This document shows, piece after piece, positions 2,065 through 61,077 of a DNA stretch of 64,000 nucleotides. The stretch is from Chloroflexota bacterium (GTDB lineage Bacteria; Chloroflexota; Anaerolineae; UBA4142), in NCBI GenBank assembly GCA_016215025.1, contig JACRMI010000009.1, forward strand, positions 1 to 64,000, written 5' to 3'. Each line of letters starts with the position of its first letter. Position 1 is the stretch's first letter. The notes beneath the pieces are model-generated. The model was given only the letters and a program-made list of their open reading frames with translations, was not told the DNA's origin and searched no databases. The translations under genes and the position numbers were made by a program.

Positions 2065-2853
2065 CTATTTTCCAATAATCAATCCGGCCGGATCGATCTC
2101 CTCGCGCAAGATTTTGAGTTCTTGATCGGTTGGTTCTGCCGTCGTTAGCACAGGATCCGCAAAGAGGATCTCGAATCCGGTGTTGGCTATCACATCATCT
2201 TTGGTTACGCCGGGATGTAGACTCTCGACACACATGCGTTTGCTCACGCGATCATAACCCATCAACGCCAAGGTACTAATCACTTTGTACGGTCCCGTCC
2301 CTGGCAGTAAACCTGCACATTCGCGTGCGCCGGGTCCGGTGAGATAACCCGGCGTCGTCAGGAAATCCAACTTGGATACAAAGCGGCGTTTGTCGTGCGG
2401 CGTAATGACGAGCGTTTTCCAACACAACGATGCCAAGTCGTTTGCACCGCCGCTGCCGGGCAAGCGCACCTTCGGCTTTTGAAAATTTGTGCCGATCATC
2501 GTCGAGTTGATGTTGCCGTACATGTCGATCTGCGCGCCCCCGAGAAACGTATAATCGACCACGCCGCGCTGACATGCTTCCATGACCTCGTTCATGCTGC
2601 TGTGCATGAGCGCGCGTGTTTGCGTATGCGATGCTGCTACCGTCAGTGGAAGCGCAATCAATTGCGGCGCGATTCCGCCCGCTTCGAACATTGTGATTAA
2701 ATTCGGCGCATGCGTTTTCTGCGCCAACATCGCCGCCGCGAGCGGCATTCCCGTGCCGATGACGGCGGTCTTGCGATCTTCGAGTTGGCGTGCGGCGACA
2801 CACACCATCAACTCCATCAAGTTATAGCGACCGTTTGGGTCTGTCATGATCAC
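2065..2853 (-). CDS. CoA-transferase family I, beta subunit (GctB-like)
   Basis: A protein of 262 residues resembling the B subunit of glutaconate/3-oxoacid CoA-transferases. These enzymes move CoA between acyl-CoA and a free acid through a glutamyl-CoA intermediate. The segment ITMFEAGGI near residue 55 matches the position of the catalytic glutamate (ExG motif) in the beta subunit. Glycine-rich loops such as GSGGANDLAS are typical of the fold. Its ATG overlaps the stop of the alpha-subunit gene by four bases, indicating translational coupling. The neighbouring anion transporter suggests an imported acid as substrate. Glutaconate itself is only a family name here; other dicarboxylates or aromatic acids are possible. 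Confidence 0.85.
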   Translation of the reverse strand: MIMTDPNGRYNLMELMVCVAARQLEDRKTAVIGTGMPLAAAMLAQKTHAPNLITMFEAGGIAPQLIALPLTVAASHTQTRALMHSSMNEVMEACQRGVVDYTFLGGAQIDMYGNINSTMIGTNFQKPKVRLPGSGGANDLASLCWKTLVITPHDKRRFVSKLDFLTTPGYLTGPGARECAGLLPGTGPYKVISTLALMGYDRVSKRMCVESLHPGVTKDDVIANTGFEILFADPVLTTAEPTDQELKILREEIDPAGLIIGK

Positions 2854-3848
2854 ACCTCTCCGCGCTTCAACGGTTCGAGCGCGCGTAATTCTGCCATACG
2901 CGCTTCGCCGCCTTTGAGCGTCAAATATTCAGCGAAGTCTCTTGTGCCGAAGATGTACTTGTCCAAAAATGCATCGAGTGAGGTCTGATCTTTTTCAGCA
3001 TCCATCCATTCGGCGAAATGCGCTTCGTCGGAAAGATATTCATACGGCATGTTGCAGGGATAACTTCCGTACGGGACGAGACAGACCGCGTCGGTCAACC
3101 AATACGGCACCATGGTCTTGGAGGGGTCTCGTCGAATCTCGTCCGTACTGACGATACGCTCGGTCGTGATGATAAGGCGTTTACTCGCGCGGGCAATGTC
3201 CCAATCGGCGACGCTGATGCCATCGACTTGGGCGTTGCCGTACATGTCGGCGCGATGCACGTGAATAATTCCGACATCAGGGAAAAGGGCCGGCACGGCG
3301 ATGAGTTTTTGCCCGGTGAAGGGGCATTCAATTTCTTTAGCGCCGCTGTATTTGAACGTGTCCGTGCCCATGAGCGAACTGGCGGGCAAAAACGGCACAC
3401 CCATCGCGGCGGCTTTGTAGCGCCACCCCAGGGTCGCGTTGCTCCACTCGGTTACGCACACCTGGCCGCTTTCCATGTAGCGGCGCGCGTTGGGCGAGAG
3501 TCCGCGCACTTCCAAGCCGACGATGTACGCCGCATCGCAGCGATCAAAGCAGCGACCCGCCGCGAGGATTTGAAAATCATGGGTCGCGGTATGTCCGGCG
3601 AAACCCAGGTGCGTTATGCGCTGACGCACGATTTCGTGCAAGACGGCGGTCGCGACCCGCACGCTGCCGAATCCGCCGGAGGCGAGATAGTCGCCATCGT
3701 GAACGAAGCGCGTGACGGCGTCACTGACACTCATCAGCTTGGGTGTCATCGCGCGCGATTTATGCGCGAAGAATTCGCGCGCACGGCGAACGTCCGGAAG
3801 CGAGAATAGTTCTCCAATCGATTGCATGCTTGTCTTTTCGTCAATCAT
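2850..3848 (-). CDS. CoA-transferase family I, alpha subunit (GctA-like)
   Basis: A protein of 332 residues, the usual length for the alpha subunit of glutaconate-type CoA-transferases. It shows the N-terminal segment MSVSDAVTRFVHDGDYLASG and a following GGFG loop that forms part of the CoA site. It is first in the operon alpha-beta-transporter, with a four-base overlap to beta. The start is supported by GAGGAG about eight bases upstream, and a near-consensus promoter lies further up. An ATG at codon 8 is a less likely alternative. It should form a heteromer with the 2065-2853 product. Confidence 0.85.
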   Translation of the reverse strand: MIDEKTSMQSIGELFSLPDVRRAREFFAHKSRAMTPKLMSVSDAVTRFVHDGDYLASGGFGSVRVATAVLHEIVRQRITHLGFAGHTATHDFQILAAGRCFDRCDAAYIVGLEVRGLSPNARRYMESGQVCVTEWSNATLGWRYKAAAMGVPFLPASSLMGTDTFKYSGAKEIECPFTGQKLIAVPALFPDVGIIHVHRADMYGNAQVDGISVADWDIARASKRLIITTERIVSTDEIRRDPSKTMVPYWLTDAVCLVPYGSYPCNMPYEYLSDEAHFAEWMDAEKDQTSLDAFLDKYIFGTRDFAEYLTLKGGEARMAELRALEPLKRGEV

Positions 3849-3890
3849 AGTTAATTCTCCTCAACTACGCGATAGCCCTAGTCCTTCATT

Positions 3891-3918
3891 ATCATATCCA
3901 GTGCATCATCTTTGTCAA
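3891..3918 (-). promoter_or_regulatory. Promoter of the CoA-transferase/transporter operon
   Basis: TTGACA (3918-3913) and TATGAT (3896-3891) are 16 bases apart on the minus strand, about 45 bases before the start codon of the alpha subunit. Together with the plus-strand promoter at 4022-4050 it makes this 244-base gap a divergent promoter region. Confidence 0.75.
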
Positions 3919-4021
3919 AAGAGCGATAGCAAGATTCATCTGCCTGAACAAACCTTCACCCAAACTGTTCTTCTGACATGCGCCTAAAATGAAGTGGAAA
4001 TTCCTTCAGGAGTTGGCAACT

Positions 4022-4050
4022 TTGATGTTTAGACCCCATTCCGATATAAT
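4022..4050 (+). promoter_or_regulatory. Promoter of the binding protein-cyclase pair
   Basis: TTGATG (4022-4027) and TATAAT (4045-4050) have a 17-base spacer and end 42 bases before the ATG at 4093. The match is strong at -10 and moderate at -35. Confidence 0.75.
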
Positions 4051-4092
4051 ACAACCGTACTGTTTCCTCACGCTTACTTTCAAGGATGCACC

Positions 4093-5463
4093 ATGAGACT
4101 CGCACAACCCCTATCCGTACTCGGAAGAATCTGCGCTTTGATCGTCGTACTAGGGATGGTCGCTTGCGCCTCGGCTGCGCCCACTCCAACCCCCAAGCTT
4201 GGGACACCTATCGCCACCGTACAAAACCAAGCGACGCCGCCTCCGGTCGAGCTGGTGATCTGGTCAGAATTATTCGTCGTGGGGAAAATGGTGGATGATC
4301 CTAACGGCATGGGACGTTATGGGACCTATCTGAAACAGCAGTTTGAGAAAGAACATCCCGGCGTCACGATCAAATTTGAGTATCATGGTTTTGACGAAGA
4401 ATTGCGCCAAAACTTGGTGACCGCGCTTCGAGTTGGAAATGCGCCAGACATTGTGGTCGGCGAGAATTATTTTCAGCAATATGCCGAATTGCAGGCGCTT
4501 ACGCCGTTGGACGATGTAGTTGCCGACATCAAGAGCAATTTGATCCCTGGGACGTACCGCGCCGCAGAATCGGACAATCACATTTACGGGCTGTCGGCAT
4601 TTACCGGCGTCTTTGGATTTGAACGCAATTGCAAAGTGATCCAAGCAACGGGCTTGAATTGCGATCAGCCGCCGCGAACCTGGAAAGAATTGAGCGATCA
4701 AGTCAAAACGATCACTCAAAAAGGAAATAGCAAATACTATGGCTACTCCTTGCAAGGTCCGGTCGGATTCGCTGTAGGTTCTGTTTTTCGAATCGCTTTA
4801 TTCATGGCACAGTCCGGCGCATCCTTGTGCAAGAACAACTGCACCGATCCTTATTTCAATAATCCTAAAGCAATCCCAGTTTTGGAGTTCATCCGCGAAC
4901 TCAATCGATCCACTCCACCCGGTCTCACGTTCAACCCCGATGAGGAACAAGTTTATAGCCAGTTGTTTCAAGGTATTTCCGCATACCAAATCGCCGGGAG
5001 TTGGCATCCCAAATGGGCGAAGGATTCGGGCTGCGAAGATTGTCGGTATTCTTCGGTCCCCCTGCCTGATGGCGGTAAATCTGCCAGTATGGTCGTCGGC
5101 AATGTAATTTACGTTGTGCTCAAGTCGAGCAAGCATCGCGACATCGCCGCTCAGTGGGTCAAATTCTTGGCGCGCGACGACGTGCAGGATTTGGTCTATC
5201 CCGTGCTGGGTCGCCTCCCTTCCACCAAAAGTGCATTGATGCGGCTCCGCCCCAACGTCAACTCGGCGAACCAAGCATTTATCGATGAACTATTGAATGA
5301 CAGCGAACTAAGTATTCTCCCCCAATGGCGCAAAGAGCCGCAACAATTGTGGACGATCTATAACGATATGCTCAAACAAGTTTTGACGACTGAGCAACCC
5401 ATTCAATCGATCATAGATCAAGCTCAAGTCAAGGCTGACGCGGTAATGCAACAAAAGCCTTAG
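4093..5463 (+). CDS. Family 1 extracellular solute-binding lipoprotein
   Basis: A protein of 456 residues with a signal peptide and lipobox ending GMVAC (Cys25), followed by a Pro/Thr-rich linker and a periplasmic-binding fold of the maltose/sn-glycerol-3-phosphate type. Segments such as TALRVGNAPDIVVG and ARDDVQDLVYPVLGRLPS fit this family. There are no ABC permease or ATPase genes nearby, which is unusual. Instead a double-Cache diguanylate cyclase starts 30 bp downstream on the same transcript. The protein may therefore present a sugar-like ligand to that sensor, or serve a transporter encoded elsewhere. The family is clear; the sensing role is inference from context. Confidence 0.85.
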   Translation: MRLAQPLSVLGRICALIVVLGMVACASAAPTPTPKLGTPIATVQNQATPPPVELVIWSELFVVGKMVDDPNGMGRYGTYLKQQFEKEHPGVTIKFEYHGFDEELRQNLVTALRVGNAPDIVVGENYFQQYAELQALTPLDDVVADIKSNLIPGTYRAAESDNHIYGLSAFTGVFGFERNCKVIQATGLNCDQPPRTWKELSDQVKTITQKGNSKYYGYSLQGPVGFAVGSVFRIALFMAQSGASLCKNNCTDPYFNNPKAIPVLEFIRELNRSTPPGLTFNPDEEQVYSQLFQGISAYQIAGSWHPKWAKDSGCEDCRYSSVPLPDGGKSASMVVGNVIYVVLKSSKHRDIAAQWVKFLARDDVQDLVYPVLGRLPSTKSALMRLRPNVNSANQAFIDELLNDSELSILPQWRKEPQQLWTIYNDMLKQVLTTEQPIQSIIDQAQVKADAVMQQKP

Positions 5464-5493
5464 CACTTTACCAACGCTAAGAAAGAACAAACG

Positions 5494-8400
5494 ATGTCTG
5501 TTCGAAGCAGAGTTTTGCAAACCCGCATCTTTGGCTCGTTGCGCAACAAACTCCTCGTCTGGTTTTTGTTGCTTTCGCTTATGCCCCTTGTTCTCATGGG
5601 CATTATCAACTATGCCGGCGCTCGTGAAAATTTCAAAAAACTCGCGTTTGACCAACTAACCGCGCTCCGACTCGCCAAGACCATCCAAATCGAAAATTAT
5701 TTCAGCGAGCAGCGACGCGACATGGGCGCACTGATCGACGCAGTCATGACGACCCGCGAAGATACCTTTAGTCAGCTCGACGTGGTACGTTCGATTAAGC
5801 AAACGCAAATCCAAGAGTATTTTGAATCTCGCCATCAGGAGCTAGCCGGCCTGGTCGAACTGCTGAACTTGCTGCCCCAAGACGCCTCAGATTCCGTCAC
5901 CCCTTCGACGCGCAGCATTTTGCAAAGCTATCCAACCACGAGTGATATTGTCAACATCTACCTAATTCGTCCGGACGGCTCGGTCTATTTTTCGCTGGTA
6001 CCGGAACTTGATCGCCAAACGAACTTGTTGACAGGTACCTTTCGTAACACCAACCTCGGCAAACTGGTTGCCACGGTGCTTGCGACCAAGCAATTTGCGC
6101 TGAGCGATTTTGAACGGTATGCCCCCCATCAGTATCAACCGGCTGCTTTTCTCGCGCAGCCCCTTCTCCGCAACAATGAGATGGTCGCCATCGTTGCTTT
6201 GCAATTATCGTACGACGGCATCAATCACATCATGCAAGATGGAACGGGCTTGGGCGAGACCGGTGAATCGTATCTGATCGGTGCATTACCATCCAGTCCC
6301 AGTCGCCCTCTATCCCAGTTTTATTTCCGCTCCAATTCTCGACTGAGAGATCCAATCAGCATTCTTAATTCGGCTTACCCAGTCAATACGGTAGCGGCGG
6401 AAAACATTCTTGCCGGAAAGACCGGGCATGGCGTGATTACGAACTATCGCGGTGCACCGGTTTTATCCTCATGGGTTCCGCTCAAGATTGCAGGACTGGA
6501 CTGGGGCATCGTAACTGAAGTGGGTGTTGAAGAAGGTTTTACTCCGCGCAATTCTGCTAGCTCGAAGGACTTTTTTGTTCGCAATAAGGAAAGCTACGGC
6601 GCCCAAGATTTGTTTCTCATCAGTCCAGGGGGCGGTTACATTTTCTATTCTGTAGAGCACAAGTCAGATTATCGAAAGAGCTTGTTCAGCGGACCCTACC
6701 AAAACACAAACCTTGCTCGCTTGATTAATCAAGTGCTCCAGACCAAACAGTTCGGTATGGTCGATTTTGAGCGTTATGAGCCAAGTCAGTTTGCGCCAGC
6801 CGCTTTTATCGCGCAACCCTTGCTCAATGCTCAAGGCAATATCGATATTATCGTCGCCGCGCAGCTTTCGTTGGATCAGATTACGGCGATCATGCAAGAG
6901 CGCACAGGCTTGGGTAACACAGGTGAAACTTATCTCGTTGGACCTGATTTGCTCTGGCGCAGTAATTCACGCTCTGCCGAACAGATGGGAGTCGCGACCA
7001 CCATTCTCAATCCGGATACGGCTGTGAATACCATTGCAACGCGCAGTGCCCTAACAGGCGATCGGGGTACCGCCATTATCGACAACTATCGACAAATTCG
7101 CGTGTTAAGCTCTTGGTCGCCCATCACGTTGAATGCATCCGAAACCAATTCCGAAACCATCCATTGGGCATTGATTGCAGAGATCGACGAGTCCGAAGTC
7201 AATCAGCCCGCCATGCAAACGACGACGACGATTGGTCTAGTGCTCTTCATTGCGATTCTGATTGTCACTTTGGCAACCTTGTTTGTCAGCCGCAGCTTAT
7301 CCGCACCGATCGTCAAGGTGGCCAAGGCAGCTACCAACATCGCAAACGGCGATCTCACTCAACGCGTCACACTGGACACGGGTGATGAAATTCAACAGAT
7401 GGCAAATGCATTTAACCACATGGCAGACGAAATTGGCGAGACCGTCCTTGCTCTAAAAAAAGCAATTGCCGAACACGAACAGGCCCGCTCAGAACTCAAC
7501 CTCCACAATCAAGAACTGGAGACGCTCAACAAATTCTCTGCCGAATTGAACCAGACTGTCAATCCGATTCAAGCACTCGAGAATTCTATCGACCGCGCAT
7601 GGGATTTGCTAAGCTTGAAAGCCGTCTGGTTATTCTTGACGGATTCAAAGGGAAGCTTGGAATTGGCAACGGCACGCGGTCTCCCTCCCACCCTTGAGCA
7701 AAATTTGGTTGATCGAAAAAAACTCTGTGCCTGTCAGCAACAGATGGTTAACGACGAGCATAATTCAGGCATATGTTTGATCCACTGCGAGTGGCTCGCC
7801 TCTTTTGCGGAATACGAATTGACCACCCATGCGAGTGTCCCTTTGCATGTCGGCAAGGCTCAGATTGGCATCCTCAACTTGGCGCGCACCAACTCCACAC
7901 CCTTTTCCGAGGATCATTTTCCGCTCTTGATCGCAATGAGCAACCAGCTTTCGGTTGCGATTGAGCGCGCGCGCTTGTTCGATCAAGTCCAACGCTTGGC
8001 TCTGACCGATCCGCTTACAGGATTGTACAATCGGCGGCATTTCTTTGAATTGGCGGAAAAAGAACTGGACCGCGCTCTCCGCTACGGTCATCCGTTATCC
8101 GTCGTCTTATTCGACATCGATCATTTCAAGCAAGTGAATGACCTTTGGGGACATGCTGTAGGCGATCAAGTCCTATGCCACCTAGTCGATCTCAGTCGAG
8201 AGGGGTTGAGGCAAACGGACATTTTAGGTCGCTATGGCGGCGAAGAATTTATCGCCCTGCTGCCAGAAACTTCATTAGCGAACGCTCAACCCATTGCCGA
8301 ACGCATTCGAACGAATATTGCCGATGCGGCACTAGCGACTTTGAAAGGTACCGTCAAATTCACGGTCAGTGTTGGCGTTGCCGCGATGAATTCCCATGAC

Positions 8401-8523
8401 TCGGCGTTTGACAAAGTGCTGGAACGAGCCGATCAAGCCATGTATGCTTCAAAACAAAGAGGAAGAAATCGGGTGACCCTCTGGCAGAGTGAGATTGACA
8501 GGTTTTCACATGAGGTGAAATAA
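5494..8523 (+). CDS. Double-Cache, HAMP, GAF, GGDEF diguanylate cyclase
   Basis: A membrane sensor of 1009 residues. It has a TM segment near 17-37, a large extracytoplasmic part with two similar Cache-type repeats (each containing DFERY and AAF..QPLL, then TGLG.TGE.YL), a second TM near 580-600, a HAMP domain, a coiled coil, a GAF domain (about 680-835) and a C-terminal GGDEF domain. The active-site loop is GGEEF at 915-919. An RxxD product-inhibition site (RQTD, 906-909) lies five residues before it. It should therefore make c-di-GMP under feedback control. The GAF domain carries four closely placed cysteines (745, 747, 761, 765). It is co-transcribed with a binding lipoprotein. Confidence 0.93.
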   Translation: MSVRSRVLQTRIFGSLRNKLLVWFLLLSLMPLVLMGIINYAGARENFKKLAFDQLTALRLAKTIQIENYFSEQRRDMGALIDAVMTTREDTFSQLDVVRSIKQTQIQEYFESRHQELAGLVELLNLLPQDASDSVTPSTRSILQSYPTTSDIVNIYLIRPDGSVYFSLVPELDRQTNLLTGTFRNTNLGKLVATVLATKQFALSDFERYAPHQYQPAAFLAQPLLRNNEMVAIVALQLSYDGINHIMQDGTGLGETGESYLIGALPSSPSRPLSQFYFRSNSRLRDPISILNSAYPVNTVAAENILAGKTGHGVITNYRGAPVLSSWVPLKIAGLDWGIVTEVGVEEGFTPRNSASSKDFFVRNKESYGAQDLFLISPGGGYIFYSVEHKSDYRKSLFSGPYQNTNLARLINQVLQTKQFGMVDFERYEPSQFAPAAFIAQPLLNAQGNIDIIVAAQLSLDQITAIMQERTGLGNTGETYLVGPDLLWRSNSRSAEQMGVATTILNPDTAVNTIATRSALTGDRGTAIIDNYRQIRVLSSWSPITLNASETNSETIHWALIAEIDESEVNQPAMQTTTTIGLVLFIAILIVTLATLFVSRSLSAPIVKVAKAATNIANGDLTQRVTLDTGDEIQQMANAFNHMADEIGETVLALKKAIAEHEQARSELNLHNQELETLNKFSAELNQTVNPIQALENSIDRAWDLLSLKAVWLFLTDSKGSLELATARGLPPTLEQNLVDRKKLCACQQQMVNDEHNSGICLIHCEWLASFAEYELTTHASVPLHVGKAQIGILNLARTNSTPFSEDHFPLLIAMSNQLSVAIERARLFDQVQRLALTDPLTGLYNRRHFFELAEKELDRALRYGHPLSVVLFDIDHFKQVNDLWGHAVGDQVLCHLVDLSREGLRQTDILGRYGGEEFIALLPETSLANAQPIAERIRTNIADAALATLKGTVKFTVSVGVAAMNSHDSAFDKVLERADQAMYASKQRGRNRVTLWQSEIDRFSHEVK

Positions 8524-8539
8524 GACAATGTTAACAAAA

Positions 8540-8570
8540 TGTGGCAGGTTCATGCCTTGCCACACTTTTT
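8540..8570 (+). terminator. Terminator after the cyclase gene
   Basis: TGTGGCAGG (8540-8548) pairs with CCTTGCCACA (8555-8564) with one bulge, and a T run follows at 8566-8570. It lies 17 bases after the stop codon of the cyclase and ends the binding protein-cyclase transcript. Confidence 0.8.
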
Positions 8571-8729
8571 GATTTCGAATCAAACGAATCTTTCTCCAGT
8601 GTCGGAAATATTACGACAGACCCTCGCCGCTTTTTTTACTCACTTTACGCTTGCCTTCCTCTTGCCGAATAATTTGCTTCATGCTACGTATTAATCACGG
8701 TAGGAAAAGATATTTATATTTCAACAACC

Positions 8730-9566
8730 ATGATGAATCTCTTGATGTTTGTTTTGCTTGCCGTTTTATTCGGCTATTGGCTCGCCAATTATTTTTGGGC
8801 ACGCCAACGGGCTGTACCGGATGTTCGCTTGATTGTGTACACCGTACTTGCCGTTGGTCTGTTTGCGCTTGTCGCGTTTGACGCAACGAGCAATCTTTAC
8901 TCCCCAGACGATGTCGAAATCACGCGCGCCCTGCAAGCATGGCGCTCTCCCTGGCTCGACAATTTCATGATTTTAATAGGATTGCCCGGCACGCCGCCGC
9001 AGACGTTGATTCTCAATGTGCTCTTTGTGCTGATCGTTTTGTTGTGTCGATTAAAACCCGAAGCACTCACGTTAGCTATTTTCGTCCCAACCTTTGGTAC
9101 GCTTGGGACTTGGCTTCGATGCGGCATCAATCGCCCACGCCCTAGCGATGACTTGGTGTTTCTCGTCGGCGAACTCAAAGACCGCAATTGCAGTTACCCC
9201 AGCGGTCACACGATCAACTTTACAGTCGTGTTGGGCTTTATGTTTTTTATCGGACTCACCCAGCTTGCACCTTCATGGCGTCGCAATCTGTTGCTGTCAC
9301 TCTATGCGCTCTACGCCATTTTGATGGAACTATCGCGCATTTATGTAGGCGATCATTGGGCTAGCGATGTGCTCGCTGGTTATTTGCTCGGCAGCGTTTT
9401 TCTGATCTGGATGATTCGGTTTTGCCAATGGGTTTCCTCGCGATTTTTTACTACCGCTCAACCTATGTCGAAGACTGCCGCAGAGATGCGGCTGCTTCTT
9501 TTTTGCATTTGCTCGATTCGAGAGTATAATTCCCTTCGCATCAGTGTGGATGCACTAGGTTCTTGA
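8730..9566 (+). CDS. PAP2-family membrane phosphatase
   Basis: A membrane protein of 278 residues with the three signature segments of the phosphatidic acid phosphatase type 2 family: an Arg-Pro-rich NRPRP (about residue 133), CSYPSGHT (about 154-161) and SRIYVGDHWASD (about 201-212). The last two contain the catalytic histidines. Members remove phosphate from lipid phosphates such as undecaprenyl pyrophosphate or phosphatidic acid at the membrane face. About six membrane segments are visible. The last 30 residues after the final membrane helix show no conservation I recognise, and their DNA contains a promoter for a downstream RNA (9503-9530). No strong ribosome binding site is visible; ATG at 8733 is equally possible. 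Confidence 0.88.
   Translation: MMNLLMFVLLAVLFGYWLANYFWARQRAVPDVRLIVYTVLAVGLFALVAFDATSNLYSPDDVEITRALQAWRSPWLDNFMILIGLPGTPPQTLILNVLFVLIVLLCRLKPEALTLAIFVPTFGTLGTWLRCGINRPRPSDDLVFLVGELKDRNCSYPSGHTINFTVVLGFMFFIGLTQLAPSWRRNLLLSLYALYAILMELSRIYVGDHWASDVLAGYLLGSVFLIWMIRFCQWVSSRFFTTAQPMSKTAAEMRLLLFCICSIREYNSLRISVDALGS
9503..9530 (+). promoter_or_regulatory. Promoter inside the 3' end of the PAP2 gene
   Basis: TTGCAT (9503-9508) and a perfect TATAAT (9525-9530) have a 16-base spacer. They lie within the last codons of the phosphatase gene and point to the structured RNA that follows. Confidence 0.6.
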
Positions 9567-9705
9567 TTGTTTCGCGCAATTAATGCTAGTCCATGGTGAG
9601 ACCGAAATGCCCAGTGTAGGGGAAGGAACAATCGAAAATAATACGGCAATGGCTTGCACCTGCTCAGCGACGTATCTTGGCGCGCGTCGTCAGCAGGTGT
9701 TTTTT
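9537..9705 (+). ncRNA. Unidentified small structured RNA
   Basis: About 170 bases lie between a good promoter and a strong terminator, with no open reading frame of note. The 5' part folds as ACTAG, a small internal loop, then TTGATTG/CAATTAA, closed again by CTAGT. A GATTGTT near 9562 could pair instead with AACAATC near 9626, so alternative structures are possible. It ends well before the next gene, and repeats fill the gap, so it looks like a free small RNA rather than a leader. I could not match it to 6S RNA, SRP RNA or a known riboswitch. Confidence 0.45.
9656..9705 (+). terminator. Strong terminator
   Basis: CACCTGCT followed by CAGCGACG pairs with CGTCG and AGCAGGTG, ending in a run of six T (9700-9705). 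It ends the small RNA and probably any read-through from the PAP2 gene. Confidence 0.85.
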
Positions 9706-9721
9706 ATTCACTCACGACGCA

Positions 9722-9871
9722 CGCTGTCATTCTGAGCGAAGCGAAGAATCTCGTAACCCAGCGCAGCGATACCCTTCGCGGAGTTGACACTGAGCGAAGC
9801 GAAGAGTCTCTCCTTCAGCGCGGGAGATGTTGCGGACGAAGTGCGTCCGACGCTGCGCTCACGCTTTGCGT
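9722..9871. repeat. Dispersed repeat family A, degenerate tandem copies
   Basis: Contains the family core CTGAGCGAAGCGAAG twice (near 9732 and 9793), each after GTCAT- or GACA-type ends, plus a reversed GACGCTGCGCTCACGC half. It fills most of the gap between the small RNA and the FAD oxidase gene. Nothing else was seen here apart from weak palindromes near 9890-9920. Confidence 0.75.
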
Positions 9872-9981
9872 GACAAGTTTCTTTCCCTAAACATGCCCTC
9901 GCGGGCATGACATTCTCAGGGTGTCAAATTCGTGAGCGAAAGGTAAGGTATTCAATCGCGAATGACTAGGCGAGGCGCGAC

Positions 9982-11373
9982 ATGAACTATGAGAATCTAA
10001 CATCGGCGGACTTGGATTTTCTAATCTCGGTCGTCGGCAAAGAATACGTTTCAACCAGAGATGCTGATTTGGACCAGCACTCGAAAGACGAGTCTTTCCA
10101 TCAAGCCGTGCGTCCATCCGTCGTCGTCTGGACACAGTCCGCTGCCGAGATTAGCGCAGTCTTGAAATATGCGAACGATCATCATATTCCTGTGACTCCC
10201 TGGGGAGCTGGCACAAGTCTCGAAGGAAATCCGATTCCGATTTTTGGCGGAATCGTGTTGGATACATCGCGCATGGACAAGGTCATTCAACTTCGCGCGG
10301 ATGATTTCCAGATCGATGTTCAACCGGGGCTGAGATACAAAGAAATGAACGCGACACTCGCGAAGCAAGGATTGTTCTTTCCGCCCGACCCCGGAGCGAA
10401 TGCCAGCATTGGCGGCATGATCGCAAATAACGCAGCGGGCACTCGCACGTTGCGATATGGTACGACGAAAGACAATGTCCTACGCTTGGAAGTTGTTCTG
10501 CCTTCGGGTGAAATTATCCGTACGGGGACACGTGCCAAGAAAACTTCGTCGGGCTTTGATCTCGTCCATCTCTTCATCGGTTCAGAAGGCACGCTCGGCA
10601 TCATCACCGAAGCGACACTGCGCTTGTCGCCATTGCCAGAAAAATTTAGCGCAGCGATTACATCGTTCTCAACAACTGAGGCAGCGACACAAGTCGTAAC
10701 GAACATTATCGGGAGTGGGATTGTTCCCGCCGCGTTAGAATTTTTGGACACCGCAACTGTGCGCGCCATCAGTGCAACCGGCGAGTTTGCGCTCGGCGAG
10801 AATCCAACTCTGCTCATGGAATTTCATAGCGCAACCGATGTTGCATTGAAAGAGGAGTTGAACCAAGTCGAAATAATGTGCAGAGATGGCGGATGTCTCA
10901 ATTTCGAAGCGGGACTCGGTCGAGATGAACGTGATCGATTGTGGCGTGCGCGTCATCGTGCTTACGATATTTTGGTGCGCAGCCGACCGGGCGTTGCGTA
11001 TCTGATCGTCGATGTGGCGGTGCCGATTTCGGAATACTCGCGCTTGGTCAGCGCAGCGCAAGCGGCGTTAGCAGAACAAGGTTTGCAAGGTTATTTGGTT
11101 GGACATGCAGGCGATGGGAATTTGCATCCATTGGTTCCGTACACGCCCGGCGACACGGCGAGCTACACCACGGCATGGGCAGCCGACGAAAAAATCGTCG
11201 AGGCGGCTATTGCAATGGGCGGTACAGCGACCGGCGAACACGGCGTTGGAATTGGCAAACGTCGCTTTATGCCGCTTGAACATGGCGCAAGTTTGAATGC
11301 GATGCGCGCCATCAAAGCCACCTTCGACCCAAACGGCATCCTCAATCCAGGAAAAATTTTTGAGTCGGATTAA
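9982..11373 (+). CDS. glcD: FAD-linked 2-hydroxy-acid oxidase (GlcD / D-lactate dehydrogenase type)
   Basis: A protein of 463 residues with an FAD-binding type 4 domain (PP-loop PWGAGTSLEGN near 72-82, then SIGGMIANNAAGTRTLRYG) and the C-terminal FAD oxidase domain with GHAGDGNLHP (about 374) and GEHGVGIGKR (about 418). This is the architecture of glycolate oxidase GlcD and D-lactate dehydrogenases, which oxidise 2-hydroxy acids to 2-oxo acids. No GlcE or GlcF gene follows directly. A Liv-type importer and a LutB-LutC fusion downstream on the same strand could supply substrate uptake and the iron-sulfur partner. A purine-rich AGGCGAGG precedes the ATG. Lactate and glycolate cannot be distinguished by sequence. 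Confidence 0.88.
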   Translation: MNYENLTSADLDFLISVVGKEYVSTRDADLDQHSKDESFHQAVRPSVVVWTQSAAEISAVLKYANDHHIPVTPWGAGTSLEGNPIPIFGGIVLDTSRMDKVIQLRADDFQIDVQPGLRYKEMNATLAKQGLFFPPDPGANASIGGMIANNAAGTRTLRYGTTKDNVLRLEVVLPSGEIIRTGTRAKKTSSGFDLVHLFIGSEGTLGIITEATLRLSPLPEKFSAAITSFSTTEAATQVVTNIIGSGIVPAALEFLDTATVRAISATGEFALGENPTLLMEFHSATDVALKEELNQVEIMCRDGGCLNFEAGLGRDERDRLWRARHRAYDILVRSRPGVAYLIVDVAVPISEYSRLVSAAQAALAEQGLQGYLVGHAGDGNLHPLVPYTPGDTASYTTAWAADEKIVEAAIAMGGTATGEHGVGIGKRRFMPLEHGASLNAMRAIKATFDPNGILNPGKIFESD

Positions 11374-51341: not shown

Positions 51342-52436
51342 TTAATAACGAAGAATCTGTGGAAGGTCTGGAATCGCCACCGTCTCTTTTTCCAGCTCGA
51401 TTATGCCACTGACAAAATGTTTTTCGATCACTGGGCTAGATTGGCATGGCTTGTACGCTACCGGCAAACGGAGTGCGCGAATAGTTGGGCGAATGACCAA
51501 GCCTGCATACACATCCGTTTTCGATTCGCCGGATGAGCGCACGATCAACAACCGCGACCGCTCATTGCGCCAACCTTCAGCCGAACGCAAACCCAACCGC
51601 GCATTTAGGTCGATAACCGGCACAAGTCGATTGCGCCAATTGATCAGACCCAACACGAACGACGGTGCGCCGGGCACGCGCGTCAGTTGCGCCGTGTTTA
51701 AGATTTCAGGAACTTGGGTAATGCTGAGCGCAAAGGACAACGCGCGTTCGCCCGGCACGGGATCGCTGGTCGAAAAGAGAAGAATCTGTTTATCGCGACG
51801 CGCTTTTTTCTTGGTGTCCGAAAATACCGGCGGTGCGGAGGGAACATGATTCTTGAAATCCGTCGCTGGTCGAAGAGCAGCGTTAGGCGATTGACGCGCG
51901 CGCGGTGCCGCATCGGGATGCACCAGCTCAGGCGCGAGCAGTAAAACCAGTTCCTCTTCCAAGCGAATGGCTCCACGAAAATAATTCGACGAGGAGCAGT
52001 TGACCAGCGCGGGCAAGGGGACAAGCTGCTCGCTCGAAATTTCGACAACCTGCGAAACGCGGTCCACCAACAATGCCCACGGACGATTTGAAATTATGAT
52101 TACGGGATTCAGAACAACGACGCGCCCGTAACTTGCAAGAGTTGTTGTCGTGCGACCCAAGCGGCTGGCGAGACTATAGACTGGGATGTCGCCGTCTTCC
52201 GCTGGCAGCCAACCGATCCTGTTGCGCGCTTCGTCGAAGAAACCTGTTCTCTCGTCTGCTTCCACGTCGTTCTTTGACTTGTCCGCCAAGAAACGGGGCT
52301 TTAGTTCAGCGACGGGCTTGATTTGGTCGGCACGTTGGATACTTCGCACCCAGCTCATATCCAATCCATAGGATTCTTCGCCAATGTTACAGCGGATGAA
52401 GCGTAATTTTCGCATCGCGGTTATTTCGTTCGCCAT
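51342..52436 (-). CDS. CheW-like protein with two CheW domains
   Basis: A protein of 364 residues. The first domain (about 8-175) contains PWALLVDRVSQVVEISSEQLVPLP. After a polar linker (about 180-220), the second domain (about 220-360) contains VLGLINWRNRLVPVIDLNARLGL and ends IPDLPQILRY. CheW domains link receptors to CheA. The first domain has an insert of about 30 residues (ADKSKNDVEADERTG and beyond) before its GDIPVYSLASRL strand. It is the last gene of the chemosensory run, 290 bases after cheB across repeats. ATG at 52436 has GAGAG upstream. Confidence 0.85.
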   Translation of the reverse strand: MANEITAMRKLRFIRCNIGEESYGLDMSWVRSIQRADQIKPVAELKPRFLADKSKNDVEADERTGFFDEARNRIGWLPAEDGDIPVYSLASRLGRTTTTLASYGRVVVLNPVIIISNRPWALLVDRVSQVVEISSEQLVPLPALVNCSSSNYFRGAIRLEEELVLLLAPELVHPDAAPRARQSPNAALRPATDFKNHVPSAPPVFSDTKKKARRDKQILLFSTSDPVPGERALSFALSITQVPEILNTAQLTRVPGAPSFVLGLINWRNRLVPVIDLNARLGLRSAEGWRNERSRLLIVRSSGESKTDVYAGLVIRPTIRALRLPVAYKPCQSSPVIEKHFVSGIIELEKETVAIPDLPQILRY

Positions 52437-52464
52437 AATTATCTCTCGCAACCATCCAGCCCAA

Positions 52465-52593
52465 TGTCATTGCGAGCGGAGCGTCGGACGAACTGCGTCC
52501 GCGCAATCTCCAACCAAGCCGGACGCGTCGCGGCTTCGTCGCTTCGGTGCTCATTGATTGCGACACTTGTTTACGTTGGAACTTACAATGACA
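52465..52593. repeat. Dispersed repeat family A, diverged copy
   Basis: Starts TGTCATTGCGAGCG and ends TACAATGACA, with an inner CGTCGGACGAACTGCGTCCG hairpin and GCGTCGCGGCTTCGTCGC. The core differs from most copies. It lies upstream of the CheW-like gene. Confidence 0.6.
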
Positions 52594-52638
52594 GTCTGGG
52601 TAATAATTTAGGACTTTCGCTTCAAGCGAGTTTTTGCC

Positions 52639-52708
52639 TGTCACCCTGAGCGAAGCGAAGGGTCTAGCTCTGCAAAAAACGAGATGCTTCGCTCCGCTCA
52701 GCATGACA
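52639..52708. repeat. Dispersed repeat family A, short copy
   Basis: TGTCACCCTGAGCGAAGCGAAG at the left and CTTCGCTCCGCTCAGCATGACA at the right, 70 bases, nearly identical to the copy at 13510-13576. It lies just after the cheB stop. Confidence 0.85.
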
Positions 52709-52724
52709 AGCGCAAGTCCTATGA

Positions 52725-53822
52725 TTATCTCTCTCGCTTGGGCGCGCACTCGATTCTCAACAAATGCGCGATTTGCGACGGCGACGCCACATGATCGACC
52801 ACACCCTTTTCAATCGCGCGCTGCGGCATTCCATTCACCACACAACTCTCGGCGTCCTGCGCAAAGGTTTGACCGCCTTTGGAACGAATCGCGACCAAAC
52901 CCAGTGCGCCATCGCTGCCCATCCCCGTTAGCACGACGCCTTTCGCGCGCGCGTTATACCACTGCGCCACCGATTGCATCGTCACATCGATCGAAGGACG
53001 ATGCCCGCCGATTTCGGGACCTTGGTTCAATTCGACCCGCGCATCCGCTCGCACGAGCAAGTGATACCCGCCCGGTGCGATCAACACATTGCCCGCTTGC
53101 AAGCGGTCGCCGTTTTGCGCTTCCTTGACCCGCAAGTTGCTGTGACGATTCAACTGCGCGGCGAGCACGCCGGTAAAAGTGGCGGGAATGTGCTGGACGA
53201 CGATAAGCGCCGCCGGAAAATCGGCGGGCAACGTGCCGATCAATTCACGCACCGCCACCGGGCCACCCGTCGATGCGCCGATGACGATGACCACTCCGGG
53301 CGCAAACGGCGCAGCATCGAAATGAGCCGGTGCTTCGGACGAAATCTCGCTCGGCGCAGGGCTGGGCAGCGCGAATTCCAAATCGGCGACCGAACGCCGC
53401 CGGACGGAACGGATGACGTGAATGCGTGCCGCCGCGCGCACCTTGGCGATAATCTCTTGCCGCAAAGCATCCGGATCAGTATCGACGCCCGGCGTGTATT
53501 TGAGAATGAAATCGACTGCGCCCATTTCCAGAGCGCGCATCGTCACTTGCGCAGCTTGATGACTGACGCCGCTCACCAACACAACCGGCGTTGGACAATC
53601 GTACATGATCGCTTCAAGCGTTTGCTCGCCGTTCATCGCCGGCATTTCCAAATCTAACGTGACGACGTCGGGACGCAGTTCTTTGATCAGCGCCAACGCT
53701 TGCAGTCCGTTCAGCGCGGTTCCCACCACCTTGATGTCCGGTACGGCTTGGAGATGAGACGTCATCAGGCGGCAGATGAATGGCGAATCGTCTACCACCA
53801 CCACGCGCGCTGGAGCGGTCAT
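52725..53822 (-). CDS. cheB: Chemoreceptor methylesterase/deamidase
   Basis: A protein of 365 residues. The receiver has Asp57 in VVTLDLEMPAMNG. After a linker, the esterase domain shows the catalytic serine in IGASTGGPVAV (about 183), the histidine in VQHIPATFT (about 209) and the aspartate in GMGSDGALGL (about 303). It removes methyl groups from the receptor, opposing CheR. Its ATG overlaps the cheA stop by four bases. Confidence 0.94.
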   Translation of the reverse strand: MTAPARVVVVDDSPFICRLMTSHLQAVPDIKVVGTALNGLQALALIKELRPDVVTLDLEMPAMNGEQTLEAIMYDCPTPVVLVSGVSHQAAQVTMRALEMGAVDFILKYTPGVDTDPDALRQEIIAKVRAAARIHVIRSVRRRSVADLEFALPSPAPSEISSEAPAHFDAAPFAPGVVIVIGASTGGPVAVRELIGTLPADFPAALIVVQHIPATFTGVLAAQLNRHSNLRVKEAQNGDRLQAGNVLIAPGGYHLLVRADARVELNQGPEIGGHRPSIDVTMQSVAQWYNARAKGVVLTGMGSDGALGLVAIRSKGGQTFAQDAESCVVNGMPQRAIEKGVVDHVASPSQIAHLLRIECAPKRER

Positions 53823-56755
53823 GCCGAACTGGCTTTCCTCGATCCAAGAATCAGATTGCGGACGGTGTTGACCAGCACATCATCTTGGTAAGGTTTGACA
53901 ATATACTCCGATGCGCCCAACTCCAATGCCTTGCGTCGATGCTTTTCCCCGGCGCGCGACGTGAGCATCGCAATCGGAATCTGGCGATACGCTTCTTGTC
54001 CTTTGAGCGTCGCCATGAGTTCGAATCCACCCATGCGCGGCATCTCAATATCGAGCAAGATCAAATCAGGCAGCTCACTCGCACGCTGAATCATTTCCAA
54101 CGCTTCCAATCCATCTTTCGCAGGGACGGGTTGCCAACCGGCGCGCTGAATCAAATTCGCGACCACGCGGCGTACGCTGACAGAATCATCGACGATCATC
54201 ACCGACCAAGCTTTGTGTACACTCGTCGGCGTGTGAATGGGAAGTTGGATGGAAGGCAGCGTTCGCTCTTCAACTTGAACTTGCGGCGTCAAGAGATCCA
54301 TGGGATTGACGATAAGCACGACCGTGCCATCGCCCATGAGCGTTGCGCCCGCTACACCTTGCACCTGGCGCAAGTGATTGCCCAACGTCTTGATGACGAT
54401 TTCACGCCCCGTGAGCAACTGCTCGACGACGAGCGCGATTTGCTCCGTTCCGGTGTTGACAATCAAGACAGGGATGCGCTCCAGACTTGTGTCGGCAGCT
54501 TGCTTGAGATTCATCAACTCGCCCAAGCGATGCACCGGATAAACGCGACCGCTCACGCGCAGCACCGGCTCTGCGCCAACCGTTTCGATCTCTTTGCGCT
54601 CGACGCGCAGAATTTGCGCGACCGAACTTTGTGGAATGGCAAACGTCTCGCCGTTCGTTTTCACGAGCAAGGCACGCATTACGGCGAGCGTCATCGGCAG
54701 GCGAATGACGAACGTGATGCCTTTGCCCGGTTCTGATTTGACGCTGATCGTACCTTTGAGTTTGTGCACATTCGTCTTGACGATGTCGAGACCGACGCCG
54801 CGTCCAGAAACTTCGCTCACCTCGCGCGATGTGCTCAAGCCCGGCAAGAAGATGAGCGAATACAGTTCCTCATTCGACAGCTTCGCCGCATTCGTCTCCG
54901 AAACAAACCCACCGCGAACCGCCGCCGCGCGGAGCAATTGCGGCTCCAGTCCTGCGCCGTCATCGCTGATTTGAATCACGACCTGGCTGCCTTCGTACGA
55001 TGCTTTCAAAACGATTTTGCCGGTCTCTGGCTTGCCCATCACTTGACGCAGCGCCGGCGGTTCGATCCCATGATCGACAGCGTTGCGCAAGAGGTGCAAG
55101 AGCGGGTCTGCCATTTCTTCTAGCACCGTCTTGTCGAGTTCGATGTGTTCGCCTTGCAAAACCAAATCGACAAGCTTGCCTTGGTCGTGCGCTATCGTCC
55201 GCACGGCGCGATGCAAACGCGTGGCCAGCGTCGCGAGCGGGACCATGCGCACGCGCATCAACTTGTCTTGCAACTCGCTGGACAAACGCCCCTGACGAAC
55301 CAGCACGCTATCCAAATCGCCGACGAGCGCGGCAAATTCGGTCGCGACGGTGCGAATGTCCGTTGTGGTTTCGGTCAGCTCGCGGCGCAGGCGATGAAAC
55401 TCGGTATAGCGATCCATTTCGAGTGCGTCGAATTCCGAGAACGTTGGCGAAATTTGCGGCGCAGTTCCAGCGATGACCGACGCCATTGCTCCACCACCCA
55501 ACGTGCTCGCTTCAAATTGCGTTTCGATGTTGGTGGACACTCGGCGCAAACGTTCGCCGCTCGCACGCAAATCTTCCACCATGCGCGCGAAATCGGTCAT
55601 GCGTTGTTCCAACGTCGTGCGCGAGATGGCGACTTCGCTGACAAGCCGCACCAACTCGTCGAGACGTTCAATCGGCGCACGCACAACTTGCCCAGAGAGA
55701 CGCGGCGCGGTTGGCGCAATCCGTTCTGCCGATTCAGGTTCGTTCGCTTGCTCTAGCCCGGCGAGATCGAGTACGGGTCCTTCGGGCAACGGCTCAACTT
55801 TATGAATCGTGACTGGCGACAAATCCGGCTCGACGGCTGGCGCTTGATCGAGCCAGGTCGAATAGCGCGCGTACAACTCCTGCAAGCGACTTTGCATCGT
55901 CGCATCGTCAAATCCACCGGCGATCAAATCTTCCAACGCATCGGACGATGTAAACAAGAGCCGCATCGTGTCCGGCGTGATCGTCATGTCGCCTTCGTAC
56001 AATTGGTCGAGCAAGTCTTCCATGCGATGTGACAATTGCGAGACGACACGCAGACCAACTGCGCCGGCTGCGCCCTTGAGCGTATGTACGCTGCGGCGAA
56101 TGCTTTGCACCAGATTTTTATCGCCCGGCTGCTTTTCGAGTTCCGAGAGATGCGTTCCGATTTGGCGCAAATGGTCTTCTGCTTCGGTGGAAAATGCTTC
56201 GACGAGTTCAGGCGACAAATCGTCATTGCGCGATGTTTCGATGGGTGGCGTCGACGGCTTGGCTTGCGATTCTATTTTCTCTGGTCGCGATGTCGGAATT
56301 GGCGAGGTGTCTTGAGCGACTTGGACCAAGACTTGCTGGACCACCGCCGCATCATCTATTTCGGGCAAGCCATGCAGACGGCGAAAGCCCAACGTGACCT
56401 TCGTCAGCATCGATTTTTCATCCAAGGTCCCAGCCCAAACCGAGTCTAGATATTTTTTGATAAGGGCAATCGTTTCGCGCATGAGCGCGGCGGCTTGATC
56501 GTTCATCGGCAATTGCTCTGCCGCGATTTCTTCCAACGCCTCTTCGAGACTGAACGCGATATGGCTCAAGCCCGCCAAGCCCACCATCGACGCAGCGCCT
56601 TTGATCGTGTGAACGAGACGATGCGTTTCTTCCAACGCTTCGGTTTGATTTGGATTGGCGCGAAGCACATCGATAAATTTCAAGATGGTCGGCAAATAGC
56701 TTTCGGCTTCTTCGATAAATCCTTGTAGAACTTCGCGGTTGACCGTTCTCACCAT
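53819..56755 (-). CDS. cheA: CheA with two HPt domains and a C-terminal receiver
   Basis: A protein of 978 residues. HPt1 has His49 in VHTIKGAASMVGL and HPt2 has His224 in VHTLKGAAGAVGL. A variable linker, a dimerisation helix pair (about 355-480, with an unusual long insert), the kinase domain (N box LLRNAVDHG near 553; GRGVGLDIVKTNVHKL), a CheW-like domain and a receiver with Asp near 900 (LILLDIEMPRMGG) follow. Multiple HPts plus a receiver recall ChpA/FrzE-type systems for surface motility or other outputs. It is coupled to cheB and preceded by a long hairpin after cheR. Confidence 0.94.
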   Translation of the reverse strand: MVRTVNREVLQGFIEEAESYLPTILKFIDVLRANPNQTEALEETHRLVHTIKGAASMVGLAGLSHIAFSLEEALEEIAAEQLPMNDQAAALMRETIALIKKYLDSVWAGTLDEKSMLTKVTLGFRRLHGLPEIDDAAVVQQVLVQVAQDTSPIPTSRPEKIESQAKPSTPPIETSRNDDLSPELVEAFSTEAEDHLRQIGTHLSELEKQPGDKNLVQSIRRSVHTLKGAAGAVGLRVVSQLSHRMEDLLDQLYEGDMTITPDTMRLLFTSSDALEDLIAGGFDDATMQSRLQELYARYSTWLDQAPAVEPDLSPVTIHKVEPLPEGPVLDLAGLEQANEPESAERIAPTAPRLSGQVVRAPIERLDELVRLVSEVAISRTTLEQRMTDFARMVEDLRASGERLRRVSTNIETQFEASTLGGGAMASVIAGTAPQISPTFSEFDALEMDRYTEFHRLRRELTETTTDIRTVATEFAALVGDLDSVLVRQGRLSSELQDKLMRVRMVPLATLATRLHRAVRTIAHDQGKLVDLVLQGEHIELDKTVLEEMADPLLHLLRNAVDHGIEPPALRQVMGKPETGKIVLKASYEGSQVVIQISDDGAGLEPQLLRAAAVRGGFVSETNAAKLSNEELYSLIFLPGLSTSREVSEVSGRGVGLDIVKTNVHKLKGTISVKSEPGKGITFVIRLPMTLAVMRALLVKTNGETFAIPQSSVAQILRVERKEIETVGAEPVLRVSGRVYPVHRLGELMNLKQAADTSLERIPVLIVNTGTEQIALVVEQLLTGREIVIKTLGNHLRQVQGVAGATLMGDGTVVLIVNPMDLLTPQVQVEERTLPSIQLPIHTPTSVHKAWSVMIVDDSVSVRRVVANLIQRAGWQPVPAKDGLEALEMIQRASELPDLILLDIEMPRMGGFELMATLKGQEAYRQIPIAMLTSRAGEKHRRKALELGASEYIVKPYQDDVLVNTVRNLILGSRKASSA

Positions 56756-56781
56756 ACGATTATCTCCGGTAGCATGGACGG

Positions 56782-56854
56782 AGACCCTAAAGGTTTCTTC
56801 GCCTTTTCAAAATACTGATAAAGGTGTCGGTTACGAAAGAAACCTTTAGGGTCT
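56782..56854. other. Long inverted repeat between cheR and cheA
   Basis: AGACCCTAAAGGTTTCTT (56782-56799) and AAGAAACCTTTAGGGTCT (56837-56854) match over 18 bases with a 37-base loop. The right arm contains the cheR stop codon and its last two codons. No T run follows on the minus strand. It may adjust cheR to cheA expression. Confidence 0.8.
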
Positions 56855-57778
56855 ATACGATGTGCGTTGATAAATTAGCGAATCGGGTTGGCGGACGAGT
56901 TGAATGCCCGGTAGTTTTAACCCGACCACTTCGGCGGGAGCGAGAAAGAGAAATCCACCTGGGTTTAAACATTGACACAGCCGCTGCACAACGGCGAGAC
57001 GGCTCTCCAACTCAAAGTACAGTAAAACGTTCTGACAAAAAATCACATCTTGCGCTGAGACCCAGTACGCTGGGTCGATCAAATTGAGATGTCCAAATTG
57101 AGTGACCGCACGCACTGTATCGACGACTTTGTAGTTGCTTGGCACGCCTTTGTCTTCTGACACGACGCGCACATAGCGATTGCGCTGCGCTTCTGGCATG
57201 TATCGAACTTCGCTGGCTTTGTATTGCGCTCGCCGTGCTTTGTCTAACGCGGGCAAGTCGATGTCGGTACCCGTGACCATGAGCTGCCAACTCGTGCGCG
57301 ACATTCCTTTTTCGTCAATGGGCGGCGTGGATGAGAGAAATTCGAGAAACGTCATCGCGAGCGAGTACGCTTCTTGCCCCGCCGCGCAGCCCGCGCTCCA
57401 CATCGTCATTGATGTGACGCCATGCCGACTTTTTTCTTTCGTCAGTTCCGGCAAGACATACCGCGCAAGCGCATCGAATGACGGCACATGTCTGAAAAAA
57501 CTCGTTTCGTTGTTAAGCAACAGCGTGAGTATTTCTGCCCATTCGTCTCCGCCGCGCGAATTGTAGACCACATAGCGATAGTATTCGCTGTAACTCTTGA
57601 TCGCACAGAGACGCATCCGTTCCCAGAGACGCTGACGCAAATAGCGTTGACGGGTTTGCGTAAAGTACAGTCCGCAGCGGTCTTGGATGAACTTTTGCCA
57701 CACCTCGTACTCGGTGGCCGACATGGCAGGTGGGATGGAGTCTGCTGGAAGATTCCAATTTTCTTCCCGATGCTCCAT
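56846..57778 (-). CDS. cheR: Chemoreceptor methyltransferase
   Basis: A protein of 310 residues. The N-terminal helical domain contains YFTQTRQRYLRQRLWERM. The SAM-binding domain has WSAGCAAGQEAYSLAM, where most CheR proteins have GEEPY. Near the C-terminus CQNVLLYF replaces the usual CRNVLIYF, followed by LNPGGFLFLAP. It methylates the MCP encoded next door. AAAGGAG lies at a good distance from ATG at 57778, but only two bases from an in-frame ATG at 57784, so the second is preferred. Confidence 0.9.
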   Translation of the reverse strand: MEHREENWNLPADSIPPAMSATEYEVWQKFIQDRCGLYFTQTRQRYLRQRLWERMRLCAIKSYSEYYRYVVYNSRGGDEWAEILTLLLNNETSFFRHVPSFDALARYVLPELTKEKSRHGVTSMTMWSAGCAAGQEAYSLAMTFLEFLSSTPPIDEKGMSRTSWQLMVTGTDIDLPALDKARRAQYKASEVRYMPEAQRNRYVRVVSEDKGVPSNYKVVDTVRAVTQFGHLNLIDPAYWVSAQDVIFCQNVLLYFELESRLAVVQRLCQCLNPGGFLFLAPAEVVGLKLPGIQLVRQPDSLIYQRTSYRP

Positions 57779-57815
57779 CTCCATTACTCCTTTGGTCGCT
57801 TGTCGAAGAGAACTC

Positions 57816-57860
57816 GTAGCATAGCCGCTTGTCGGCTTCGCCCACGAGGGGCTATGCTAC
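57816..57860. repeat. Palindromic repeat family B
   Basis: GTAGCATAGCCGCTTGT at the left and ACGAGGGGCTATGCTAC at the right bound 45 bases between the MCP stop and the cheR start. Confidence 0.8.
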
Positions 57861-57875
57861 TTCTCCGACAACCTG

Positions 57876-60800: not shown

Positions 60801-60944
60801 GTAGCTGACAATACCCAGGATGACCAGGATTGGGATTGACAGCAACAAGAACGCGCCGAGAAGCTTGTTGCGAATACTGTCCGCAAAGAATCGGACTAGG
60901 CGGGAATTGGTAATTCGCCCCCACAACCCTTTTTTCTCTTCCAT
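57876..60944 (-). CDS. Methyl-accepting chemotaxis protein with large Cache sensor region
   Basis: A protein of 1022 residues. The first TM is near 28-48. The large extracytoplasmic region contains two Cache-type parts, the second with [19 protein letters not shown] and [16 protein letters not shown] second TM (about 605-627), HAMP (about 628-680) and a long signalling domain follow, whose tip reads [19 protein letters not shown] near 881. The sensor region is clearly related to that of the cyclase at 5494. It is the only MCP in the window and presumably feeds the adjacent CheA. No CheR-tethering pentapeptide is seen at the end (KLPTPSQN). Confidence 0.95.
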
Positions 60945-61004
60945 GACTCATATCTCCTTTGAGCAGTTGCTTACCCAACCCCCACCCCCGCGCTTCGCGC
61001 TCTC

Positions 61005-61068
61005 CCACCCCTCTCCTGATTTGAACCGCAAAATCAGGAGAGGGGGAGGGGGATGGGGGGATGGGTGA
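61005..61068. repeat. C/G-rich hairpin and G-run tract before the MCP gene
   Basis: CTCTCCTGATTT (61011-61022) pairs with AAATCAGGAGAG (61031-61042). It is followed on the plus strand by four G runs (about 61043-61066: G5, G5, G6, G3 with one- or two-base spacers) and mirrored by C runs to the left. It is non-coding and sits in the gap between cheW and the MCP start. Confidence 0.75.
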
Positions 61069-61077
61069 GGTGAACAG

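Follow-up and report, generated by a model that had tools for sequence, protein, structure and literature searches.

Control of receptors by separate binding proteins is well established, and chemoreceptors, kinases and c-di-GMP enzymes are all described as targets (PMC9602780, PMC6321045). For most receptors the signal has yet to be found, and one suspected cause is that sensing is indirect and goes through binding proteins (PMC11113362). According to the same source, the two genes are adjacent or very close in ten of eleven characterised kinase couples; it also reports three nearby binding proteins of Pseudomonas, two of them lying with a transporter operon, that showed no interaction with kinases (PMC11113362). 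Adjacency of a binding protein and a kinase thus does not always mean interaction.

Several described systems resemble the pair reported here. NspS-MbaA, which occurs in Vibrio cholerae and also in Sinorhizobium meliloti, is presented as an ABC-type periplasmic binding protein that associates, depending on its ligand, with a c-di-GMP enzyme of the membrane and thereby controls it; NspS binds polyamines and MbaA has GGDEF and EAL domains (PMC8967002). The L-arginine response of the Salmonella dCache_1 cyclase STM1987 is reported to require both the Cache domain and the periplasmic binding protein ArtI, and in RmcA-type fusions a binding-protein fold, an SBP_bac_3 domain inside the enzyme, feeds the c-di-GMP output (PMC8846402). 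In LuxP-LuxQ and XylFII-LytS, whose structures are known, the binding protein is docked on a sensor kinase (PMC6321045). A literature search, to which subscription papers were mostly closed, turned up no Chloroflexota pair of this kind. We consider it quite probable that the lipoprotein described below once served transport and has since become the part of the adjacent receptor that captures the ligand, docking on the receptor's tandem Cache region and altering c-di-GMP synthesis.

The two-gene unit

The pair lies on the forward strand of the window, by which we mean the whole analysed stretch of 64,000 nucleotides. It consists of an SBP_bac_1 lipoprotein of 456 aa (4093..5463) and a diguanylate cyclase of 1009 aa (5494..8523), separated by a 30-bp gap (5464..5493) with a purine-rich AAGAAAG stretch ahead of the cyclase start. 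The earlier note had read here a binding protein 30 bp before a sensor cyclase, and both open reading frames bear this out; its further remark, that no transporter gene accompanies them, agrees with a Pfam scan of the flanking genes (2850-11373), in which neither permease nor ATPase was recognised. It had also given the pair a promoter and a terminator of its own. Candidates are suitably placed on the same strand, namely a weak promoter-like -35/-10 arrangement, TTGATG-17-TATAAT (4022..4050), and a statistically weak terminator-like hairpin followed by a T-run (8540..8564). However, the scanned region holds ten -35/-10-type sites against 5.1 expected from shuffles and ten terminator-like hairpins against 5.8, about twice the shuffled expectation, so both signals are plausible and unproven.

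The lipoprotein matches PF01547 (E=2e-26) and PF13416 (E=2e-21) above the gathering score and is of SBP_bac_1/SBP_bac_8 type. Its lipobox with Cys25, matched to what we take to be a PS51257-like pattern, is followed by an Ala/Pro/Thr-rich tether and a domain that is two-lobed by family. The closest solved structures are mostly sugar-binding proteins (best 5ci5, E=2.5e-19), and a plasmid search returned sugar-type binding proteins, all below 60% identity. Predicted structures reached a mean pLDDT of 44 for the binding protein (window and L067-L069) and 38 for the sensor (window cyclase and window MCP), too low to be relied on.

The cyclase probably runs as TM, a tandem pair of Cache copies, TM, HAMP, GAF and GGDEF, with one hydrophobic segment on either side of the Cache pair. 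The first copy spans 5953..6534 (aa 154-347; Pfam dCache_1 at aa 94-341) and the second 6607..7197 (aa 372-568; dCache_1 E=4e-4 at 6586-6945). HAMP (7282..7434, aa 597-647) lies where the second hydrophobic segment (about aa 572-607) ends, followed by GAF (7564..7962, aa 691-823) and GGDEF (7999..8472, aa 836-993), all on the forward strand. Pfam E-values are 2e-48 for GGDEF, 6e-16 for HAMP, 2e-10 for GAF and 4e-10 for dCache_1, the last being a match of 40 bits, under the gathering score of 45 bits. The two Cache copies form an internal repeat, 46% identical across 184 aligned residues, with an alignment score of 365 against 33 +/- 5 for shuffles. The enzyme had earlier been called a double-Cache cyclase; the sensor, built of two tandem copies, exceeds one double Cache. 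GGEEF is intact (aa 915-919), and RQTD five residues upstream presumably represents the I-site, or product-inhibition, pattern. The protein thus carries the GG(D/E)EF sequence expected of an active diguanylate cyclase. The Pfam scan revealed no EAL domain in it and no GAF domain at the matching position of its G132 orthologue.

Other relatives of the tandem Cache sensor are chemoreceptors and kinases. A chemoreceptor encoded in the window (57876-60944, reverse strand) carries the same sensor as the cyclase at 38% identity; it sits within a chemotaxis cluster at about 51342-62106, whose genes were named by reading, the receptor alone being scanned, and it has an orthologue with a similar neighbour in G012 (L038). 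Elsewhere, L159 (2886-8055) encodes a tandem-Cache hybrid kinase with a Peripla_BP_4 binding protein 28 bp upstream.

Gene context and ancestry of the binding protein family

The family of the lipoprotein comprises 21 members at 45-68% identity, the next matches reaching at most 33%. Of the 396 genomes searched in the class, 18 hold a member at 45% identity or above, the window genome among them. Sampling 400 genomes across the phylum added G687 (54%) and three further matches at 31-33%, taken as outgroups; a named genome collection supplied three loci, one of which (L069) is identical to G316 contig L102, leaving L067 and L068 as new. Two more orders (56 and 25 genomes) contributed no additional family member.

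Context is readable for 20 of the 21, the contig of G243 ending directly 3´ of the gene. Half of them (10/20) directly precede a dCache-HAMP receptor, which is a cyclase in the window and in G132 and a histidine kinase in G345, G357, G379, G266, G174, G317, G249 and G387. The other ten adjoin MalF and/or MalG permeases, and both contexts together occur in none of the 20. Gaps between binding protein and receptor are 30, 11, -4, -4, -4, 2 and -4 bp in seven cases and exceed 200 bp in three (224, 229 and 637 bp). The cytosolic parts of the partner kinases vary (GAF, PAS, receiver). In five of nine scanned partner receptors dCache_1 falls under the Pfam gathering score, though always with E at or below 3e-10, and the HAMP match of the G174 kinase is below the cut-off as well. 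A weakly MalG-like gene (E=2e-16) lies 3.9 kb past the kinase at L104 (G249) and was counted as non-cognate. In G082, a single 772-aa open reading frame (L157:6950-9268) matches both binding protein and MalF and is apparently an SBP-permease fusion.

As a baseline, we inspected 43 other SBP loci. MalF or MalG is recognisable within 1.5 kb in 32 of them (counted by eye), and L088 has a divergent kinase-like gene alongside its permeases. A HAMP receptor follows the binding protein in just one (L004), against the ten of 20 family members that stand directly before a dCache receptor. Further, the pair is kept in the window and in G132, which belong to different families, with 65% identity between the binding proteins and 54% between the sensors. 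Both facts speak against the reading that binding protein and cyclase are chance neighbours in one promoter unit; it can draw on the cyclase form occurring in only two genomes and on the weak promoter and terminator calls, but we disfavour it and find it hardly credible. The earlier note had suggested a search for conserved adjacency of the two families in Chloroflexota; adjacency is seen with the dCache receptor, which is found beside all ten proteins of the window's clade, while the cyclase itself is limited to two genomes.

Ancestry was addressed with a tree of 26 proteins (18 members with known context, that of G243 and seven outgroup rows; G387 and G309 were omitted as fragments). The nine receptor-linked proteins fall on a single branch (support 97/98) that arises from within the transporter-linked proteins. 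The two cyclase-linked proteins group at 88/80, under the star threshold, and the tree gives no order for kinase and cyclase pairing. Searches for the cognate permease, which rested on MalF and included several incomplete genomes (55-97%), separated the two groups clearly: the best match in each of ten receptor-linked genomes was at background level (at most 36% identity and 154 bits), whereas all five transporter-linked genomes gave a match at 55-61% and 332-404 bits. In the window genome (G000) the best match was 33% and 153 bits, so that, as judged by MalF, the cognate permease is gone. Cognate MalF is thus missing from 10/10 receptor-linked genomes. Cognate permeases tightly co-occurring with the binding protein, and no co-conservation with the cyclase, had been named beforehand as what would speak against a signalling role; such permeases do exist in cousins (10/20), yet the window's clade always adjoins a dCache receptor (10/10). 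As far as sequences can tell, the receptor-linked lineage is one that lost its permease. Most likely, a binding protein that once served transport was turned into a subunit dedicated to receptors, usually kinases and, in the window, a cyclase.

Across nine receptor-linked and nine transporter-linked binding proteins, 55 columns are invariant, which suggests that the ligand site was retained from the transport ancestor. The sole position fixed differently between the two groups is aa 306, V in transporter-linked and P in receptor-linked proteins (at least 88% each), near the invariant G302-S303-W304. Cysteines at aa 180, 246, 250, 314 and 317 are invariant within the receptor-linked clade and present in just three of nine transporter-linked proteins; these residues possibly form disulfides.

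Binding proteins and their Cache sensors

Identity matrices were compared within a small set, the seven kinase pairs of full length; G387 and both cyclase pairs stood outside it. Divergence of the binding protein follows that of the Cache sensor (r=0.87, reached by 5/5040 permutations) but not that of the kinase core which the sensor's own gene encodes (r=0.05, 1764/5040). Rank correlation behaves likewise (0.83, 4/5040, for the sensor; 0.09, 1810/5040, for the core), and the contrast persists when any pair is left out (0.62-0.91 against -0.10 to 0.29). Since one gene encodes both the sensor half and the kinase half, genome kinship does not readily explain this contrast. The matched divergence suggests a shared ligand or a shared surface.

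This result bears on two other explanations. Firstly, the lipoprotein might still transport, feeding non-cognate MalFG elsewhere, while the neighbouring receptor senses directly and shares nothing but the promoter. Binding proteins of this kind can serve several permeases, the genome contains 24 MalF-like matches, and the columns common to both groups suggest an intact ligand site. We nevertheless regard continued transport as unlikely, given that cognate MalF has disappeared from every receptor-linked genome, that all ten partners are receptors of one design, and that the binding protein diverges with the sensor half and not with the kinase half. Secondly, the Cache domains might bind the ligand directly, the lipoprotein merely concentrating or buffering it near the receptor and never docking. 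dCache domains are described as commonly binding small molecules, for example in the cyclases SpdE and GcbC (PMC8846402). The matched divergence points rather to a shared surface, though a shared ligand fits too, and we hold direct binding to be quite improbable. A docking sensing subunit remains our preferred reading.

The Cache sensors of the kinases are mutually related (26-53% identity). In BLAST, the tandem Cache of the cyclase showed no clear relation to them (best E=0.02, L095-L101), and docking as inferred for the kinases is therefore not automatically transferable to the cyclase. The idea that kinase and cyclase sensors make up one Cache family was set aside on the same BLAST result. 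The binding protein thus seems to have changed partner, to a Cache receptor of a second kind.

Neighbouring genes of this sort recur across the window genome. The genome gave 16 dCache_1 matches (E up to 1e-3) from 15 distinct proteins, and five of these proteins directly adjoin a binding protein: Peripla_BP_6 (L168), SBP_bac_8/6 (L170), SBP_bac_1 (L172), the window pair itself, and SBP_bac_3, in this case downstream (L171). Conversely, three of 29 SBP_bac_1 matches directly precede a dCache_1 gene, for which the chance figure is about 0.06 by a rough estimate assuming 7000 genes. A fourth SBP_bac_1 protein, L189 (the L004 gene), precedes a HAMP-PAS protein that matches sCache very weakly. The receptor at L171:1303-3440 (G000:C91) is a 423-aa dCache-HAMP protein with no output domain recognised, located 23 bp before the SBP_bac_3 lipoprotein. 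At L164:75-3748, a Cache receptor lies directly 3´ of an NMT1 binding protein.

A broader proposal, which we consider about as likely as not, is that this Chloroflexota lineage abandoned transport a single time and has since acted as a sensing subunit that can be exchanged between receptors. It would stay with Cache while kinase cores are swapped, and would have moved at least once onto an unrelated tandem-Cache cyclase. If this is true, binding protein and Cache represent a portable sensing module in these bacteria, and other binding-protein families do likewise in parallel.

Proposed mechanism and its described relatives

In the mechanism that we suggest, the lipoprotein, anchored on the outside of the membrane, would capture a solute that is probably a sugar or a derivative of one. 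It would dock on the tandem Cache region that the cyclase exposes outside the cytoplasm, and the signal would run via the second TM helix and HAMP to GGDEF, resulting in changed c-di-GMP synthesis, and GAF might provide a further cytosolic input to GGDEF. Physical docking, the class of ligand and the sign of the effect are inferred, as is the view that cyclase and kinase pairs function alike. Sugar as ligand class follows from the family names and from GntR-LacI regulators adjoining four transporter-linked loci (L067, L068, L069 and L107). We take these regulators to be AraR-type, and they give a hint, though only that, of an arabinose-like ligand.

The earlier note had proposed that ligand capture by the lipoprotein controls c-di-GMP synthesis as a nutrient signal, and this is borne out in part. 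A sensing role of the lipoprotein is well supported by comparative genomics, as the clade always stands beside a dCache receptor and cognate MalF is gone; the wider pairing is with histidine kinases. Most likely, the lipoprotein acts as a detachable sensing part of a signalling receptor. For c-di-GMP signalling in Chloroflexota it offers a concrete candidate input. The family has receptor- as well as transporter-linked forms, and setting them side by side allows direct tests of how transport gave way to signalling, of the docking surface and of how one sensing module is reused for different outputs.

Taken together, the pair would, by analogy, work like NspS-MbaA or LuxP-LuxQ, and the mechanism itself is already known. 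Like NspS-MbaA, whose genes are adjacent and whose binding protein is related to PotD, it combines a separate binding protein with a c-di-GMP enzyme and lacks a permease of its own, as judged by MalF. It differs in its sugar-type SBP_bac_1/8 protein, its tandem Cache and its HAMP-GAF-GGDEF arrangement; since EAL is absent by Pfam, we liken the pair to NspS-MbaA and do not file it as a member. ArtI is part of a working arginine transporter, whereas the window pair is a two-gene unit whose cognate permease, again on MalF evidence, is gone. Among the cousins of the window protein, those paired with kinases resemble LuxP-LuxQ and XylFII-LytS, and the LuxQ sensor has a double PAS/Cache-like fold. 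The binding-protein families and kinase types of these two systems differ from those of the window lineage, and unlike the window pair, they have no cyclase output. Compared with RmcA-type fusions, the window pair carries its binding-protein fold on a separate lipoprotein.
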